The position numbers and the translations under genes were made by a program. Positions 24,021 to 29,077 of a stretch of 33,940 bases of DNA are shown here, piece by piece. How positions within the stretch are numbered: position 1 is the first letter of the stretch; each line of letters begins with the position of its first letter. Source of the DNA: an uncultured Opitutaceae bacterium (GTDB taxonomy: Bacteria; Verrucomicrobiota; Verrucomicrobiia; Opitutales; Opitutaceae); contig CAIWXW010000053.1 in NCBI GenBank assembly GCA_903916755.1, forward strand, positions 1 through 33,940, written 5' to 3'. The notes under the pieces were generated by a model. The model ran no database searches and was not told where the DNA came from. It saw only the letters and a list, made by a program, of their open reading frames with translations.

Positions 24021-25424
24021 ATGCCTCCCTCCCTCCCTCCCGGCAGCGAAATCCTCCTCCTGGAGGATGACGCGGGCCTGCGCAAGCGGCTCGCCGCCCA
24101 TCTCCGCGCCCTGGCGGCCCAGGTGACGGAGGCCGGCACCCTGGCGGAGGCGCGGCGGCTGCTGGCCACCCTCCGCTTCGATTTCGCGCTGGTCGACCTG
24201 CACCTGCCCGATGGCGAGTCGCTCGATCTCCTCCGCGCGGGGGCCTTCTCCGAAAACACCGGGGTCGTGGTGATGACCGCCTTCGGGGGCGTCAAGCAGG
24301 CGGTCGAGGCCATCCGGCTCGGCGCGGGCGACTACCTCGCCAAGCCCTTCGAGCCCGAGGAGCTCCCGCTCGCGTTCCTGCGCTGCCGGGCCTCGCGCGG
24401 GGCCGCCCGCCGCGAGGAACAGCGCGCGTCCGAGCAGGCGGCGGAGACCGAGCAGCTCTTCTTCGGGGAAAGCCTCGCGCCCGTCCGCGCGGAACTCGAG
24501 GCGATCCTCGCCGCGGAGCGGCGCCTCGAGCGCCGGCTGCCGCCGATCCTGATCGAGGGGGAGACCGGAACCGGCAAGACGCTGCTCGCCCGCTGGCTGC
24601 ACCGCCAGGGCCCCCGCGCCGACCGCCCCTTCATCACCATCAACTGCGCGGCGCTCACCGAGACCCTCGTCGAGGCCGAGCTCTTCGGGCATGAGCGCGG
24701 CGCCTTCACCGACGCCAAGCGCGCGCGGATCGGGCTCTTCGAGGCGGCCGACGGGGGCACGCTGTTCCTCGACGAGATCGCCTCGCTCTCGCCCGCCACG
24801 CAGGCGAAGGTGCTGGTCGCCGTCGAGGAGGGCGTCATCCGCCGGCTCGGCGCCACCCGCGAGACGGCGGTGGACGCCCGGCTGATCGCCGCGAGCAACC
24901 GCCCGCTGGCGGCCATGGTGGAGGAGGGTGCGTTCCGGGAGGACCTCTACCAGCGCCTCAATCTCCTCCGCATCGGGCTGCCGCCGCTGCGCGAGCGCGC
25001 GCGGGACCTCCTGCCGCTCGCCCGCCATCTGCTCGCCCGGATATCGCGGCGGCACCGCCGGGGCGAAGGCCGGATCAGCGCGGCCGGCGAAGCCCGGCTC
25101 CTGGCGCAGCCCTGGCGCGGGAATCTCCGCGAACTCGCCCACGAGCTCGAGCGGGCGGTCATCTTCGGGGGCGAAGGTCCCTTCGATTTTGCGCACCTGG
25201 CCGGAGACGCCGTGGTCCCGGCCGGAGGCTGGCGCAATCCGGCCTGGCGGCTGCCGGAGGAAGGCTTCTCGCTGGACGCGGCGATGAACGACCTGATCGC
25301 CGACGCCCTGCGCGCCACCGACGGCAACGTCTCGGCCGCCGCGCGGCGGCTGGGGGTCACCCGGGAATTCCTGCGCTACCGCCTCGACGGGGCCAAGGGA
25401 GATTCGGCCGGGGCCGCTGGCTAA
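24021..25424 (+). CDS. Sigma-54-dependent response regulator (NtrC family)
   Basis: A 467-residue bacterial enhancer-binding protein. The receiver domain (about 10-120) has the acidic pair in LLLEDDAG, phospho-acceptor D59 in ALVDLHLPDG, T86 and K108 in YLAKPF. The AAA+ domain has Walker A GETGTGKT (180-187), the sigma-54 contact loop GAFTDA (228-233; GAFTGA in most members), Walker B GTLFLDE, and the arginine-finger region FREDLYQRLN. A Fis-type helix-turn-helix closes the protein (ATDGNVSAAARRLGVTREFL). When phosphorylated such proteins open sigma-54 promoters from upstream sites. GGGGAG stands ten bases before the ATG at 24021. A -24/-12 promoter and two dyads follow it, and the sensor kinase is encoded three genes on. 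Confidence 0.93.
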   Translation: MPPSLPPGSEILLLEDDAGLRKRLAAHLRALAAQVTEAGTLAEARRLLATLRFDFALVDLHLPDGESLDLLRAGAFSENTGVVVMTAFGGVKQAVEAIRLGAGDYLAKPFEPEELPLAFLRCRASRGAARREEQRASEQAAETEQLFFGESLAPVRAELEAILAAERRLERRLPPILIEGETGTGKTLLARWLHRQGPRADRPFITINCAALTETLVEAELFGHERGAFTDAKRARIGLFEAADGGTLFLDEIASLSPATQAKVLVAVEEGVIRRLGATRETAVDARLIAASNRPLAAMVEEGAFREDLYQRLNLLRIGLPPLRERARDLLPLARHLLARISRRHRRGEGRISAAGEARLLAQPWRGNLRELAHELERAVIFGGEGPFDFAHLAGDAVVPAGGWRNPAWRLPEEGFSLDAAMNDLIADALRATDGNVSAAARRLGVTREFLRYRLDGAKGDSAGAAG

Positions 25425-25425
25425 A

Positions 25426-25484
25426 TGGGGGCAAGCACCCAATTTGCCCGTCGAGGCGGATCCATCGCTGGTTGCCAAGCACCA
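25426..25484 (+). promoter_or_regulatory. Two similar dyad sites, likely activator-binding (enhancer) sites
   Basis: Site 1 is TGGGGGCAAGCACCCA (25426-25441) and site 2 is TGGTTGCCAAGCACCA (25469-25484). Each is an imperfect dyad of the form TGG..GC-AA-GCA.CCA, and both contain CAAGCACC, 44 bases apart (about four helical turns). They lie about 94 and 137 bases upstream of the -24 element, the normal range for NtrC-family enhancers. Site 1 starts just after the regulator's stop codon. Confidence 0.55.
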
Positions 25485-25567
25485 GAAGCGGGCCCCCTCG
25501 CGGACCTCCCCTGCCCTAAAAAACCCCATCCTGTTGAACTAAAGTAATTTATGGGCCGCCTTTTCCC

Positions 25568-25584
25568 TTGGCACGGAACGCGCA
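25568..25584 (+). promoter_or_regulatory. Sigma-54 (-24/-12) promoter of the lipoprotein-repeat protein-kinase operon
   Basis: TTGGCACG (25568-25575) is a perfect -24 element. Four bases later GCGCA (25580-25584) supplies the -12 GC at exactly the required spacing from the GG, followed by A, though the preceding TT is GC. Transcription would start near 25594, giving a leader of about 29 bases before the lipoprotein ATG. It lies 144 bases after the stop of the sigma-54 activator gene. Confidence 0.65.
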
Positions 25585-25622
25585 AAGATACTCCCGGCCT
25601 TCTCCCTCACTCTCCTCCCAAC

Positions 25623-26129
25623 ATGAAAACAAAACTCCTCGCCCTCGCCTCGTTCCTGATGGTCGCTCTCCTCGCTGGCTGCAACACCGCCGCCCAGCTC
25701 AACAATGTCCGCATCGGGATGACCAAGGACCAGGTCATAGCCCTCCTCGGCACGCCCGACAGCACGAGCGCCCAGGCCAATGTCGAGTATATGACCTATT
25801 ATCTGGAGAACGGCGCCGACATCGGAAACAGCAGCCGCGACCGCGCCTACATGGTGCGGCTGGTCGACGGCAAGGTCGAGTCGTTCGGCCGCTTCGCGCA
25901 GCTCTTCGATCTCTACAACCGGCCGGTGACCTCGGCGCAGCCGGGCGAGGCGGCGTTTCCCACCACCCAGAATACGCTCAATGGCATGATGGTCACTCCC
26001 ACCGCGGCGGTCGCCCCCCAGGCGGGGATCGCCGACCAGATCCAAAAGCTGAAGAGCCTGAAGGATCAGGGCGTGATCACCGATGACGAGTTCCAGCGCG
26101 CCAAGGCCAAGCTGCTTTCGAACCCGTAA
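25623..26129 (+). CDS. BamE/SmpA-like lipoprotein with C-terminal SHOCT domain
   Basis: A 168-residue lipoprotein. MKTKLLALASFLMVALLAGC gives a lipobox (LAGC) with lipidated C20. Asn at +2 does not give the Asp that retains lipoproteins in the inner membrane, so the outer membrane is likely if the Lol rule applies. Residues about 24-75 (NNVRIGMTKDQVIALLGTP) are a SmpA/OmlA (BamE-like) domain, a fold that occurs in outer-membrane assembly and inhibitor proteins. Residues about 137-166 (QKLKSLKDQGVITDDEF) are a SHOCT motif, a short helical oligomerisation module. The ATG at 25623 is preferred because it begins the signal sequence; its leader is C/T-rich. It is the first gene of the putative sigma-54 operon; the next gene starts 32 bases on. 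Confidence 0.8.
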   Translation: MKTKLLALASFLMVALLAGCNTAAQLNNVRIGMTKDQVIALLGTPDSTSAQANVEYMTYYLENGADIGNSSRDRAYMVRLVDGKVESFGRFAQLFDLYNRPVTSAQPGEAAFPTTQNTLNGMMVTPTAAVAPQAGIADQIQKLKSLKDQGVITDDEFQRAKAKLLSNP

Positions 26130-26161
26130 TCGTCACGCGTACCGGCCGAAGCGACCGCCCC

Positions 26162-27652
26162 ATGAACGCTGCAGCCCGCCGCGGTAGGAGGCGCAGCGCG
26201 CCCGGAGGGGCCGCGCTGCTCGGGCTGCTGCTCGCCCTGGCGCCGCTCGCGCGCGCGCAGCCCGTCGGCCCAATTGGCTCCGGCGAGAACAGCCCAGGCT
26301 ACCCCCCGCCGCGGGCGCTGGCGGGGATGCCGCCGCTGGCGGGAGCCGTGCAGATCTACTTTCCGCCGGACATCCCGCGGCTGGGCGCGGCCCCCGCCGC
26401 GCGTCCGGCCACCCATGGGGGATGGCCCGCCCCGGCCGGGCTGGCCCCGTTCGTGGATGAGCCGTTTTACGCCCCGCTCAGCACGCTCCTCGCGCATCGC
26501 GCGGTCAGCGCAGAGCCGCAATTCCAGCTGGAGGCCTACCGGGCGACAAAGACGGCCCTTCAGACGGAGCTGCGGGCCCGCCTCGACACGCTGAAGGACG
26601 CCGATCCCGAGTCGCGGCGCCGAAGCCTGCAGGCCTTCGCGCAGGAGCAGAGCCCCCGGGTCGCCGCGCTGGAGTCCACCGCGGAGGCACTGCGGGTCCG
26701 GATCCTCAATGCGCGCATCAGCGTGAACGAATACGTGCGCTGGACCGTCGACTTCGGGGCCGACCCCAAGCCCCAGCCGGACCAGCTCTCCGCCCGCTTC
26801 CGTGAGCTCGCCCTGATGGACGACTTCTATCAGGCGGGCCTGTCGCCGGCCCAGCGCCGCCTGCTCCGGGAGGTCACGCTCGACCGGACCGACGGCACGG
26901 ACGGCTGGATTTTTTTCTCGCCTGAGACTGCTCGCATCCACCTCCAGCGCGGGCTCCCGCCCGAGCTCACGGCGAAAATCGCCGCCTATCGCGGGGAGAA
27001 GACCGCCCTCAAGACCGAGCTCGTGACGATGCTTTATTTCCGCCGGCCGGCCGCCGGCCATCGCGCCGCGAGCCTGCGGGCACTGGCCCTGGCCCAGGCG
27101 CCGCGCTTTGCGGCCCTGGAAGCGATGGCCGAGGAAATCCGCCAGGGCTTCGCGGCCCTCCGCGATCCGGCCCAGCCACCCCCGGTGTCCGGCCTTCCGC
27201 CCGAACTGGCCGACCGGATCGCCTCGTATCGCCACGACAAGCTCGCGATCCAGCAGGAGCTTCTGGCGCGGGTCGAGGCGGTGAAAGCTTCGGCCGCGCC
27301 GGCCGACCGGGCGCTCCTGGCGGACCGGATCCGCGAGGCCATAACCCGCTACACCCGCGAAAACGCGGAGCGCTACTCGGCCCTGGAGAAGAGCAAGGAC
27401 GCGATCCGCGACGCCCTCGCCCATCTGCCGGCGCCCAGCCCGGGGCCGGGGGACGCGGCCACCGCCGACACCCTGGTGAAGACGTTCTCCGACTCGCTCC
27501 AGCAACTGCAGACCTACTGGGACTATCGCGACTACCAGACCGCCGTGTTTCAACCCGGGCTCTCCCCCGAGCAGCGCCGGCTCCTCTTCGACGGGGCCCT
27601 GGATAAACTTGCACTTCCGCTGCCCGACGCCGCAATCGATCCCAATCGGTAA
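26162..27652 (+). CDS. Exported repeat protein of unknown function, between lipoprotein and sensor kinase
   Basis: A 496-residue protein that I do not recognise. A signal peptide is clear (hydrophobic residues about 18-31, cleavage after ARA at 32). Two kinds of internal repeat are visible. A-type helical units of about 60 residues start with AYR-x-x-K-T-A-L at 125, 276 and 355 (third copy SYRHDKLAI) and continue with a SLxAxAxxQxPRxAALE segment in the first two; copies two and three are preceded by GLPPEL. B-type units, GLSPAQRRLLREVTLD (226-241) and GLSPEQRRLLFDGALD (466-481), lie after the first and third A units. The sequence is mostly charged and helical, suggesting a periplasmic solenoid or coiled-coil. 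It is 27 bases from the kinase gene and probably co-expressed; a role in sensing or as a target is inference. Confidence 0.7.
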   Translation: MNAAARRGRRRSAPGGAALLGLLLALAPLARAQPVGPIGSGENSPGYPPPRALAGMPPLAGAVQIYFPPDIPRLGAAPAARPATHGGWPAPAGLAPFVDEPFYAPLSTLLAHRAVSAEPQFQLEAYRATKTALQTELRARLDTLKDADPESRRRSLQAFAQEQSPRVAALESTAEALRVRILNARISVNEYVRWTVDFGADPKPQPDQLSARFRELALMDDFYQAGLSPAQRRLLREVTLDRTDGTDGWIFFSPETARIHLQRGLPPELTAKIAAYRGEKTALKTELVTMLYFRRPAAGHRAASLRALALAQAPRFAALEAMAEEIRQGFAALRDPAQPPPVSGLPPELADRIASYRHDKLAIQQELLARVEAVKASAAPADRALLADRIREAITRYTRENAERYSALEKSKDAIRDALAHLPAPSPGPGDAATADTLVKTFSDSLQQLQTYWDYRDYQTAVFQPGLSPEQRRLLFDGALDKLALPLPDAAIDPNR

Positions 27653-27679
27653 TGACCTGAGGCCGTCCGTCCCCGCCCG

Positions 27680-29077
27680 ATGCCCCGCTCCCCCCTCCCC
27701 CTTGCCGTGGTGACCGTGGCGGCCGGGGGCCTGCTGGTGGCGATCCTGGTCGGGACCGTGGTCCCGTTTCGAGCCGAGGAGCGGGCGACCTATGACCGCG
27801 CGCTCATCGAGCGCGACGCCGCGGTGCTCTACCCCGAGGCCCTGGAACAGCTCGCCCAGAGCGAGGCAGCGGCCGGCGGCCACGCCGCCAGCGTGGCTGA
27901 TCTGCTCGCGCCGGTCCTCCGCAACGCCAATATCGAGAGCCGCGGCGCCCCCCCGGCCGAGGGCATGCTCGCCGCGGCGGTGTTCGACGGCGAGGGCAAG
28001 TTGGTCCAGTTCGCACCGGCCACGCTGCTTCTGCCCGAGCTCTCGCCCGAGATGTATCCCCGTCTCCTCGGCGGCGAGCAGATCAGCCTCTACCATCCCG
28101 ACTTTCCCCTCGACCAGTACTTCGCCGGGGTGGCGCAGCCGGCGGGCGGGGCCGGGCTGCCCGTCCTGGAAGTCCTCCTGCCGCTGCCGGGGCGCGACGC
28201 GGCCGGCCCCGTGGGCTTCGTCCAGTATTTCATCGACGCGCGACGCCTGGCCGTGGAGCTGGCGGCGGTCGACCGCCGGTTCAACCGCGAAACCACGGCG
28301 ACCCTGGCCATCGGCGGGGCGCTGATCGCCCTCGTGCTCGGGGCGGCGTACTTCGGCTTCCGCCGGGCGCAGGGCCTGATCGCCGAGCGCAACGAGCGGC
28401 TGGTGCGGGCCAACTTCGAACTCACCCTGGCGGCGAAGGCCTCCGCCCTGGGCCAGATCACCTCGCACCTGATCCATGGCCTGCAGGGCTCGGTCGCGGG
28501 GCTCAGCGCCGTCGTGACGGAGCGCAGCCATGACTCGGCCGGGGCCTTGGAGTGGCGCTCGGCCGCGACCTACACCGCGCGGCTCCAGGCCATGATCCAG
28601 GAGACGGTCGCCCTTCTCGGCGACGAGGGCGCGCAGGTGAGCTATGTCCTGACCGGCCGGGAGCTCGCCGACACCATTCGCCGCCGCAATGCGCAGGCCG
28701 CCGCCGACAAGGGCGTCGGCCTGCGCGTCACGGGGGAGTTCGAGGCCACGATCGACAGCCACCGCGGAAGCCTCCTCTGCCTCATCGCCGCCAATCTGGT
28801 TCAAAACGCGATCCAAGCGACGCCGGCCGGGGGCCGCGTTGAGGTGGTCCTCCGCGACGAAAACGAGGCGATCACCCTGGCGGTGACGGACGACGGGCCC
28901 GGCATCCCTCCGGCGATCCAGGCCCATCTCTTCGAGGCCGGCCGCAGCGGCCGGCCGGGCGGCACGGGCCTCGGTCTGGCCATCAGCCGGCTCCTCGCCC
29001 GGCAGATCGGGGCCAACCTCGGGCTGGAAGGCACCGGGGCTGCCGGCACCACTTTCCAGCTGACCCTGCCGCGCTGA
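27680..29077 (+). CDS. Membrane sensor histidine kinase
   Basis: A 465-residue kinase with two membrane helices (about 7-29 and 208-226) around a periplasmic sensor domain of about 180 residues (with AAAVFDGEGKLVQFAPA and GPVGFVQYFIDARRL, perhaps a Cache/PAS-like fold). The dimerisation box KASALGQITSHLIHGLQGSV holds the likely phospho-acceptor H266, followed by Gly rather than the usual Glu. The ATPase domain is complete: N box AANLVQNAIQA, DDGPGIP (404-410) and GGTGLGLAIS. It likely phosphorylates the sigma-54 response regulator encoded at 24021, since no other regulator or kinase is in the window. It sits last in the sigma-54 operon, so activation would raise its own level. It ends four bases before the facing gene. 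Confidence 0.9.
   Translation: MPRSPLPLAVVTVAAGGLLVAILVGTVVPFRAEERATYDRALIERDAAVLYPEALEQLAQSEAAAGGHAASVADLLAPVLRNANIESRGAPPAEGMLAAAVFDGEGKLVQFAPATLLLPELSPEMYPRLLGGEQISLYHPDFPLDQYFAGVAQPAGGAGLPVLEVLLPLPGRDAAGPVGFVQYFIDARRLAVELAAVDRRFNRETTATLAIGGALIALVLGAAYFGFRRAQGLIAERNERLVRANFELTLAAKASALGQITSHLIHGLQGSVAGLSAVVTERSHDSAGALEWRSAATYTARLQAMIQETVALLGDEGAQVSYVLTGRELADTIRRRNAQAAADKGVGLRVTGEFEATIDSHRGSLLCLIAANLVQNAIQATPAGGRVEVVLRDENEAITLAVTDDGPGIPPAIQAHLFEAGRSGRPGGTGLGLAISRLLARQIGANLGLEGTGAAGTTFQLTLPR

Follow-up and report, generated by a model that had tools for sequence, protein, structure and literature searches.

A conserved, probable sigma-54 promoter with paired putative enhancer sites downstream of an NtrC-type regulator gene in Opitutaceae

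The DNA analysed here, referred to as the window, is a stretch of 33,940 nucleotides from an uncultured Opitutaceae bacterium and corresponds to contig C53 of a 3.35-Mb genome (227 contigs, 93% complete). At the locus of interest, a tryptophan synthase alpha gene on the reverse strand is followed by a regulator gene, a gap of 198 bp and the genes for a BamE/SHOCT lipoprotein, a protein designated P3 and a histidine kinase. The regulator gene (24021–25424, forward strand) encodes an NtrC-type response regulator, the proposed activator of the downstream genes. Its product combines a receiver, an AAA+ sigma-54 activator domain and a Fis-type helix-turn-helix domain with the helix VTREFLRYR, and its Pfam matches (Response_reg, Sigma54_activat, AAA_lid_14 and HTH_8) all lie above the gathering cut-off. 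The regulator stays below the NCBIfam equivalog cut-offs for AtoC (300.6 bits, cut-off 714), ZraR (261.2, cut-off 760), PrsR (270.4, cut-off 502.6) and NtrC (282.6, cut-off 558.6). The first gene after the gap (25623–26129, forward strand) encodes a lipoprotein with BamE and SHOCT domains in Pfam and an N-terminal lipobox in its translation. The second gene (26162–27652, forward strand) encodes P3, a secreted helical protein for which no Pfam or NCBIfam family was found at E ≤ 0.001. The last gene (27680–29077, forward strand) encodes a histidine kinase with a HATPase_c domain in Pfam. This kinase gene is linked to the regulator gene, and its product contains the phospho-His and ATPase boxes expected of a two-component pair. 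Residues H263, H266, N372 and those of the G-box are invariant among 20 aligned kinases, and the kinase is likely to be the cognate sensor of the regulator.

The locus was compared with its relatives. A search for the regulator in 252 genomes of the same GTDB family identified 122 matches at E ≤ 1e-90 in 108 genomes. Of these matches, 101 were examined (the window, 20 and a further 80 loci), and 99 were usable, with at least 250 nt after the regulator stop codon. In a regulator search of contigs, L061 was the sole close relative kept among 80 loci; the other 79, at 33–43% identity, were left out. In two loci, L200 and L206, the end of the regulator was set past an internal stop. The window belongs to clade A (63–77% identity), and a second group, clade B, shows 51–58% identity. 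The receiver Asp, Thr and Lys and the Walker Lys are retained in the regulator family, the phospho-Asp column holding D in 100 of 101 loci and the Walker Lys being present in all 101. The window regulator and 96 of the 101 family loci carry the loop GAFTDA in place of GAFTGA. GAFTDA appears among the loop variants listed as keeping activation in the part of PMC4641369 available to us. P3 has a tblastn match in 30 of the 37 clade A loci, the window included, and is the partner of the kinase in this clade; the lipoprotein has one only in L041 among the 100 other loci.

A putative sigma-54 −24/−12 promoter, TTGGCACGGAACGCGCA, lies in the 198-bp gap at positions 25568–25584 of the forward strand. 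It was recognized from the sequence itself and from the family comparison. The initial annotation had placed TTGGCACG-N4-GCGCA with exact GG-to-GC spacing at this position, which is borne out by direct reading: the GG-N10-GC spacing is exact, and the element has the TGGCAC and TTGCW-like halves of a sigma-54 promoter. The −12 half is the weaker of the two and has C at position 14, a base found there in 10 of 83 loci, T occupying this position in 62 of 83. The pattern TTGGCACGNNNNGCGCA matches the window without mismatch only at this element; allowing up to three mismatches gives 17 matches, which is not above the 24.5 expected by chance. The looser pattern YTGGCAC-N7-GCW occurs 21 times in the whole genome compared with 70 times for a reversed control pattern. 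By arithmetic from the genome count, its chance of falling on one strand of a given 198-nt gap is about 6 in 10,000. Transcription would be expected to start near position 25594.

Upstream of the promoter lie two putative regulator dyads of 16 bp each, to which no strand is assigned. The distal dyad, TGGGGGCAAGCACCCA, occupies 25426–25441 and starts at −142 from the −24 element; the proximal dyad, TGGTTGCCAAGCACCA, occupies 25469–25484 and starts at −99. Both assignments draw on dyad positions in relatives, those of the family for the distal and those of clade A for the proximal site. The conserved element of the dyads is TGG-N10-CCA. Six of the eight symmetric base pairs are kept in the distal dyad and four, the outer TGGT/ACCA, in the proximal one. 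The two dyads proposed earlier, with centres about 94 and 137 bases ahead of the promoter GG, were thus found again, but the 44-base spacing of the octamer CAAGCACC shared between them did not hold as the dyad spacing. The octamer copies (25432–25439 and 25476–25483) are 44 bases apart and the dyads 43 bp, so the octamer is shifted by one base relative to the dyad axes, and it was rejected as the operator.

Comparison of the orthologous intergenic regions, the check proposed together with the annotation, showed that both the dyads and the GG-N10-GC element are kept in most relatives' loci and at preferred mutual distances. With score weights set by hand, a −24/−12 element scoring at least 13 was detected in 82 of the 99 family loci, among which close relatives are not independent, versus 9.2% in dinucleotide shuffles. 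At a score of at least 14.4, the element was detected in 61 of 99 loci versus 0.9% in the shuffles. Upstream of the −24 in the 82 loci, 65 exact TGG-N10-CCA dyads were observed versus 3.5 expected. Counted without binning, 22 of the 25 exact dyads of clade A start at −99 to −103 or at −142 to −147. Within preset bins, the family set has 14 exact dyads at −142 to −147 (bin −148 to −140), and clade A has 15 exact proximal dyads at −99 to −103 (bin −106 to −86). The standard deviations of the distances were computed within such bins, of 20 and 8 bp. For the proximal dyads of clade A, the distance to the −24 has a standard deviation of 1.0 bp (within the 20-bp bin) and that to the stop codon one of 93 bp, the dyads lying 22 to 368 nt past the regulator stop. 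As the distance is fixed to the −24 and variable to the stop codon, the dyad belongs to the promoter. This bears on a reading of the dyads as RNA hairpins, for instance as the terminator of the regulator transcript. The distal dyad does begin two bases past the regulator stop codon, and a short hairpin could arise there. However, no terminator-like site was found in 25300–25700, and the dyads of the relatives follow the −24 and not the stop codon; terminators were rejected on these grounds, and the hairpin reading is exceedingly improbable.

When the threshold was reduced to 12.4 and the search extended to 600 nt, 89 loci showed a −24/−12 element. At least one exact dyad at −60 to −160 is present in 52 of them, 17 of which have two; 37 have none, some of these showing near matches. 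In the 17 two-dyad loci the spacing is 42–44 bp in thirteen, 32 bp in three and 35 bp in one. The dyads cluster at −144.5, −134, −122.5, −111, −101.7, −91.1 and −67, the clusters at −134, −111 and −67 consisting of a single site each. These positions fit a period of 10.5–11 bp, with p = 0.013 in a cluster-centre test at 10.5 in which three of the clusters are one site each. Such positions would put the dyads on the same face of the helix, a reading that has modest statistical support. The lineage keeps the predicted promoter and dyad layout almost to the base.

The use of such a promoter requires consideration of sigma-54 itself, since the window's assembly gave no match to either Sigma54_DBD or Sigma54_CBD. 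Read literally, this would mean that sigma-54 has been lost, that the GAFTDA regulator works with another sigma factor and that the −24/−12 element is a relic. Sigma54_DBD is present in 184 of 200 family genomes, 16 being without a match. Within the genus it is present in 9 of 11 genomes searched, and the two lacking it include that of the window. Five same-genus stretches were compared. In G148, G188, G162 and G038, tsaD lies tail-to-tail beside rpoN, the G038 gene being a PF04552 match that the G148 protein hits weakly; in G176, tsaD and rpoN face each other 2.8 kb apart. The sole tsaD match in the window's genome covers residues 1–88 and is cut by a contig end on the rpoN side. On the other rpoN flank, contig C197 has ubiE close to its end, and the kinase that follows ubiE in the relative G148 was not found there. 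Since tsaD is cut at a contig end and adjoins rpoN in relatives, an assembly gap is the likeliest, if unproven, reason for the missing rpoN; true loss was rejected as the likeliest reading on the same two grounds. In the same genome, −24/−12 matches lie 48 and 106 nt before genes labelled PII-like (L222, contig C33) and glutamine-synthetase-like (L236, contig C153) from their N-terminal sequences, as expected of an organism that uses sigma-54. Given these matches, an assembly that is 93% complete in 227 contigs and the listing of GAFTDA, in the part of PMC4641369 available to us, among variants held to keep activation, loss of sigma-54 is very unlikely.

The question of which protein binds the dyads was approached through covariation between the recognition helix and the half-sites, using 48 loci with 61 exact dyads and 122 half-sites. 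When the residue after the helix Arg is Gln, base 4 of the half-site is C in 12 of 12 cases (4 loci), and C was found in 0 of 110 half-sites with other residues. With Asp at this position, base 4 is G in 68 and T in 6 half-sites, and with Glu it is T in 23 and G in 13. The residue before the Arg shows a further association: TG at bases 5–6 occurs in 39 of 64 half-sites with Thr and in 3 of 42 with Ser. The Gln/C combination corresponds to two changes on the best tree, a single clade not being rejected (AU p 0.095), and the Thr/TG association yields at most six independent tree pairs and no significance. The genome G074 contains two copies with different half-sites, TGGCTG in L051 and TGGGTG in L053. 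These helix residues are presumably equivalent to those of Fis. The part of PMC4784862 available to us describes that in Fis, Arg85 contacts the conserved guanine and Asn84, the residue before the Arg, contacts the purine of the base pair three positions inward, contacts which fit the helix and half-site geometry found here. Recognition here would share with Fis a conserved Arg and a conserved G; unlike Fis, the regulator is an activator carrying an AAA+ domain, and its putative site is 16 bp long and even-centred. As the half-sites covary with the recognition helix, the neighbouring regulator has good support as the binder of the dyads, with few independent events.

The dyads could instead be bound by another regulator, such as a global NtrC or a repressor, with the adjacent regulator acting elsewhere. 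At least 16 regulator-like matches exist in the window's genome (67 candidates, 16 scored), and some relatives have such dyads ahead of the regulator gene as well. It would have to be explained, however, why the half-site follows the helix of the neighbouring regulator, why the two copies in G074 differ in their half-sites and why an exact TGG-N10-CCA is found 60–160 bases upstream of only one of the 21 genome-wide −24/−12 matches, that of the window. Control by another regulator is therefore considered very unlikely. The dyads upstream of the regulator gene lie 112–175 nt before it, without a −24/−12 element, in L046, L047, L052, L149, L152, L153, L154 and L156, and in the last five of these and in L052 a block like GCGAnTAnnGTTGAnGC is present nearer to the regulator start. 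Autoregulation through another promoter is possible in these relatives.

The gene content downstream of the promoter provides natural controls. For 91 loci the sequence extends 3.5 kb or more past the regulator, and these were scored for a promoter (score of at least 13 within 500 nt) and for same-strand matches to eight kinase queries. A promoter is present in 75 of the 82 loci in which an insert is followed by a same-strand kinase versus 1 of the 9 others. In these nine, the kinase is directly adjacent (L048) or none was found, and the sole promoter-positive one, L142, reaches the score with no kinase within 6.5 kb. The promoter score is not reached in seven of the 82 loci. Among them, L041, L053 and L159 carry a weaker −24/−12 element accompanied by dyads in phase, the expected promoter position of L160 is covered by Ns, L043 retains TGGCACG and not the GC, and L152 and L215 show no −24/−12 element at score 12. 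In clade A, a same-strand kinase lies behind the regulator in 32 of 37 loci; of the five without, four end within about 1.1 kb and the fifth is L142. For a regulator subgroup (L188, L195, L202, L206, L216 and L219), no same-strand kinase was found within about 6.5 kb downstream, and the regulator gene is not followed by a promoter; the regulator of L216 carries GAFSDA.

The slot between the promoter and P3 is variable. It holds the BamE/SHOCT lipoprotein in the window and in L041 and barrel-like or other secreted proteins in the others looked at; when the window, L041, L042, L044, L049, L050 and L051 were compared, the gene differed. It is an apparently swappable cargo slot beneath a fixed promoter. 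Many clade B loci encode a small secreted helical protein and a putative outer-membrane barrel of about 400 residues, followed by the kinase; in 4 of 20 cases the barrel matched DUF481 weakly. When profiles of the barrel, the small secreted protein and P3 were compared with solved structures, none gave a hit at E ≤ 0.1, and the single-sequence model of P3, helical with a pLDDT of 52, is too poor for a fold search. A comparison of P3 with the small secreted protein by hhalign (probability 10.7%, E 0.003) is a lead only. For the function of the operon, the signs point to the cell envelope. This agrees with the title of PMC3162934, which argues for sigma-54 as a central controller of the bacterial exterior.

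The predictions were noted before loci from other families of the order were fetched. Of 65 matches, 60 were fetched, the five left out being truncated, and 57 loci were usable. The helix residue after the Arg is Asp in all 57, so that the Gln and Glu cases are absent. In the dyads before a scored promoter, base 4 is G in 25 of 28 half-sites, and TG at bases 5–6 was found in none of the 28. Eleven of 14 dyads are in phase (p 0.019 in a binomial test that ignores relatedness). The promoter prediction failed at the threshold, 18 of 57 loci reaching a score of 13. Ten of the remaining 39 have a TTGGCAC-like −24 located 98–100 bp after a dyad and have lost the C of the −12 GC. In these ten loci (L276, L277, L283, L286, L288, L299, L303, L304 and L307 of family f2, and L309 of f11), the −12 element ends in TGA, TGT or TGG, not in TGC. 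The altered ending is possibly a lineage variant of the sigma-54 −12 element.

We propose that the locus very probably carries a sigma-54 promoter with a two-site enhancer, driven by the adjacent regulator and raising expression of the lipoprotein, P3 and the kinase. The regulator would be made independently of the promoter at 25568–25584, as no dyad or −24/−12 was seen ahead of its gene in the window. The kinase, product of the last operon gene, would sense a signal, presumably from the envelope, leading to phosphorylation of the regulator. The phosphorylated regulator would bind both dyads on one face of the helix and loop over 83–126 bp to the promoter, where its AAA+ ring would open the sigma-54 polymerase. 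We infer that the lipoprotein, P3 and the kinase itself would then be raised; because the operon contains the kinase as well as the cargo, feedback is likely, probably as a self-reinforcing, envelope-sensing loop. The original proposal that the regulator encoded at 24021–25424 binds the dyads and switches on the genes at 25623–29077 is supported, at the level of sequence, by the conserved dyads and promoter, by the match between helix and half-site and by the promoter usually missing where an insert plus kinase is missing. Counting against this explanation are the lack of an RpoN domain in the assembly, GAFTDA, the 7 of 82 loci with insert and kinase below the promoter score, the 37 of 89 loci without an exact dyad, L142, the 18 of 57 in other families, the imperfect proximal dyad and the weak −12.

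What had been a motif guess is now a defined circuit common to much of one Opitutae lineage. Its mechanism is textbook; what merits a specialist's attention is the conserved geometry together with the possible code linking helix to half-site. The recognition code, promising and unproven, is the main novelty. It may be formulated as a Fis-type helix code of enhancer-binding proteins, in which the residue after the Arg would set base 4 (Gln/C, Asp/G, Glu/T or G) and the residue before it would influence bases 5–6 (Thr/TG). The enhancer-promoter distance would shift in whole helical turns, and the cargo from the promoter to the kinase would be exchanged. Taken as a whole, this generalization is tentative, a little short of an even chance. 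Regulator and docking sites appear to have changed together. If the code is real, knowing a few helix residues could allow the operators of other regulators in the family to be predicted.

The circuit is of an ordinary NtrC type, here in the form of a lineage-specific two-component operon of predicted envelope function. In the open-access literature, no paper was found that combines Opitutaceae with sigma-54, or Verrucomicrobia with sigma-54 and an enhancer-binding protein. Tandem NtrC sites are located upstream of glnAp2, three helical turns apart. The locus shares with this enhancer the −24/−12 element and two dyads about 90–145 bp upstream, roughly integral helical turns apart. It differs in its half-site (TGGkTG, and not the NtrC consensus), in its dyad spacing (43 bp here; 42–44 bp in 13 of 17 two-dyad family loci and 31–35 bp in the others) and in controlling envelope-type genes and a kinase. 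ZraSR/ZraP is an envelope-stress two-component system, and ZraR is among the relatives with a solved structure. Like this system, many clade B loci have an NtrC-type regulator, a membrane kinase and a small secreted protein in the operon. Unlike it, the regulator stays below the ZraR cut-off (261, cut-off 760), and its gene lies outside the regulated operon. The small protein of L196 has a Metal_resist match below the cut-off, and 21 others scanned had none at E ≤ 0.01. Regulator and kinase both match the models of PrsK/PrsR of the XrtA/PEP-CTERM system, but reach 270.4 bits (cut-off 502.6) and 68.5 bits (cut-off 300), respectively. The H-box of the window kinase, HLIHGLQGSVAGL, has G after the His and no NP, while most of the aligned kinases from clade B show NP or a variant (for example HELKNP and HGLKNP), and the form in the window might alter the phosphatase activity.
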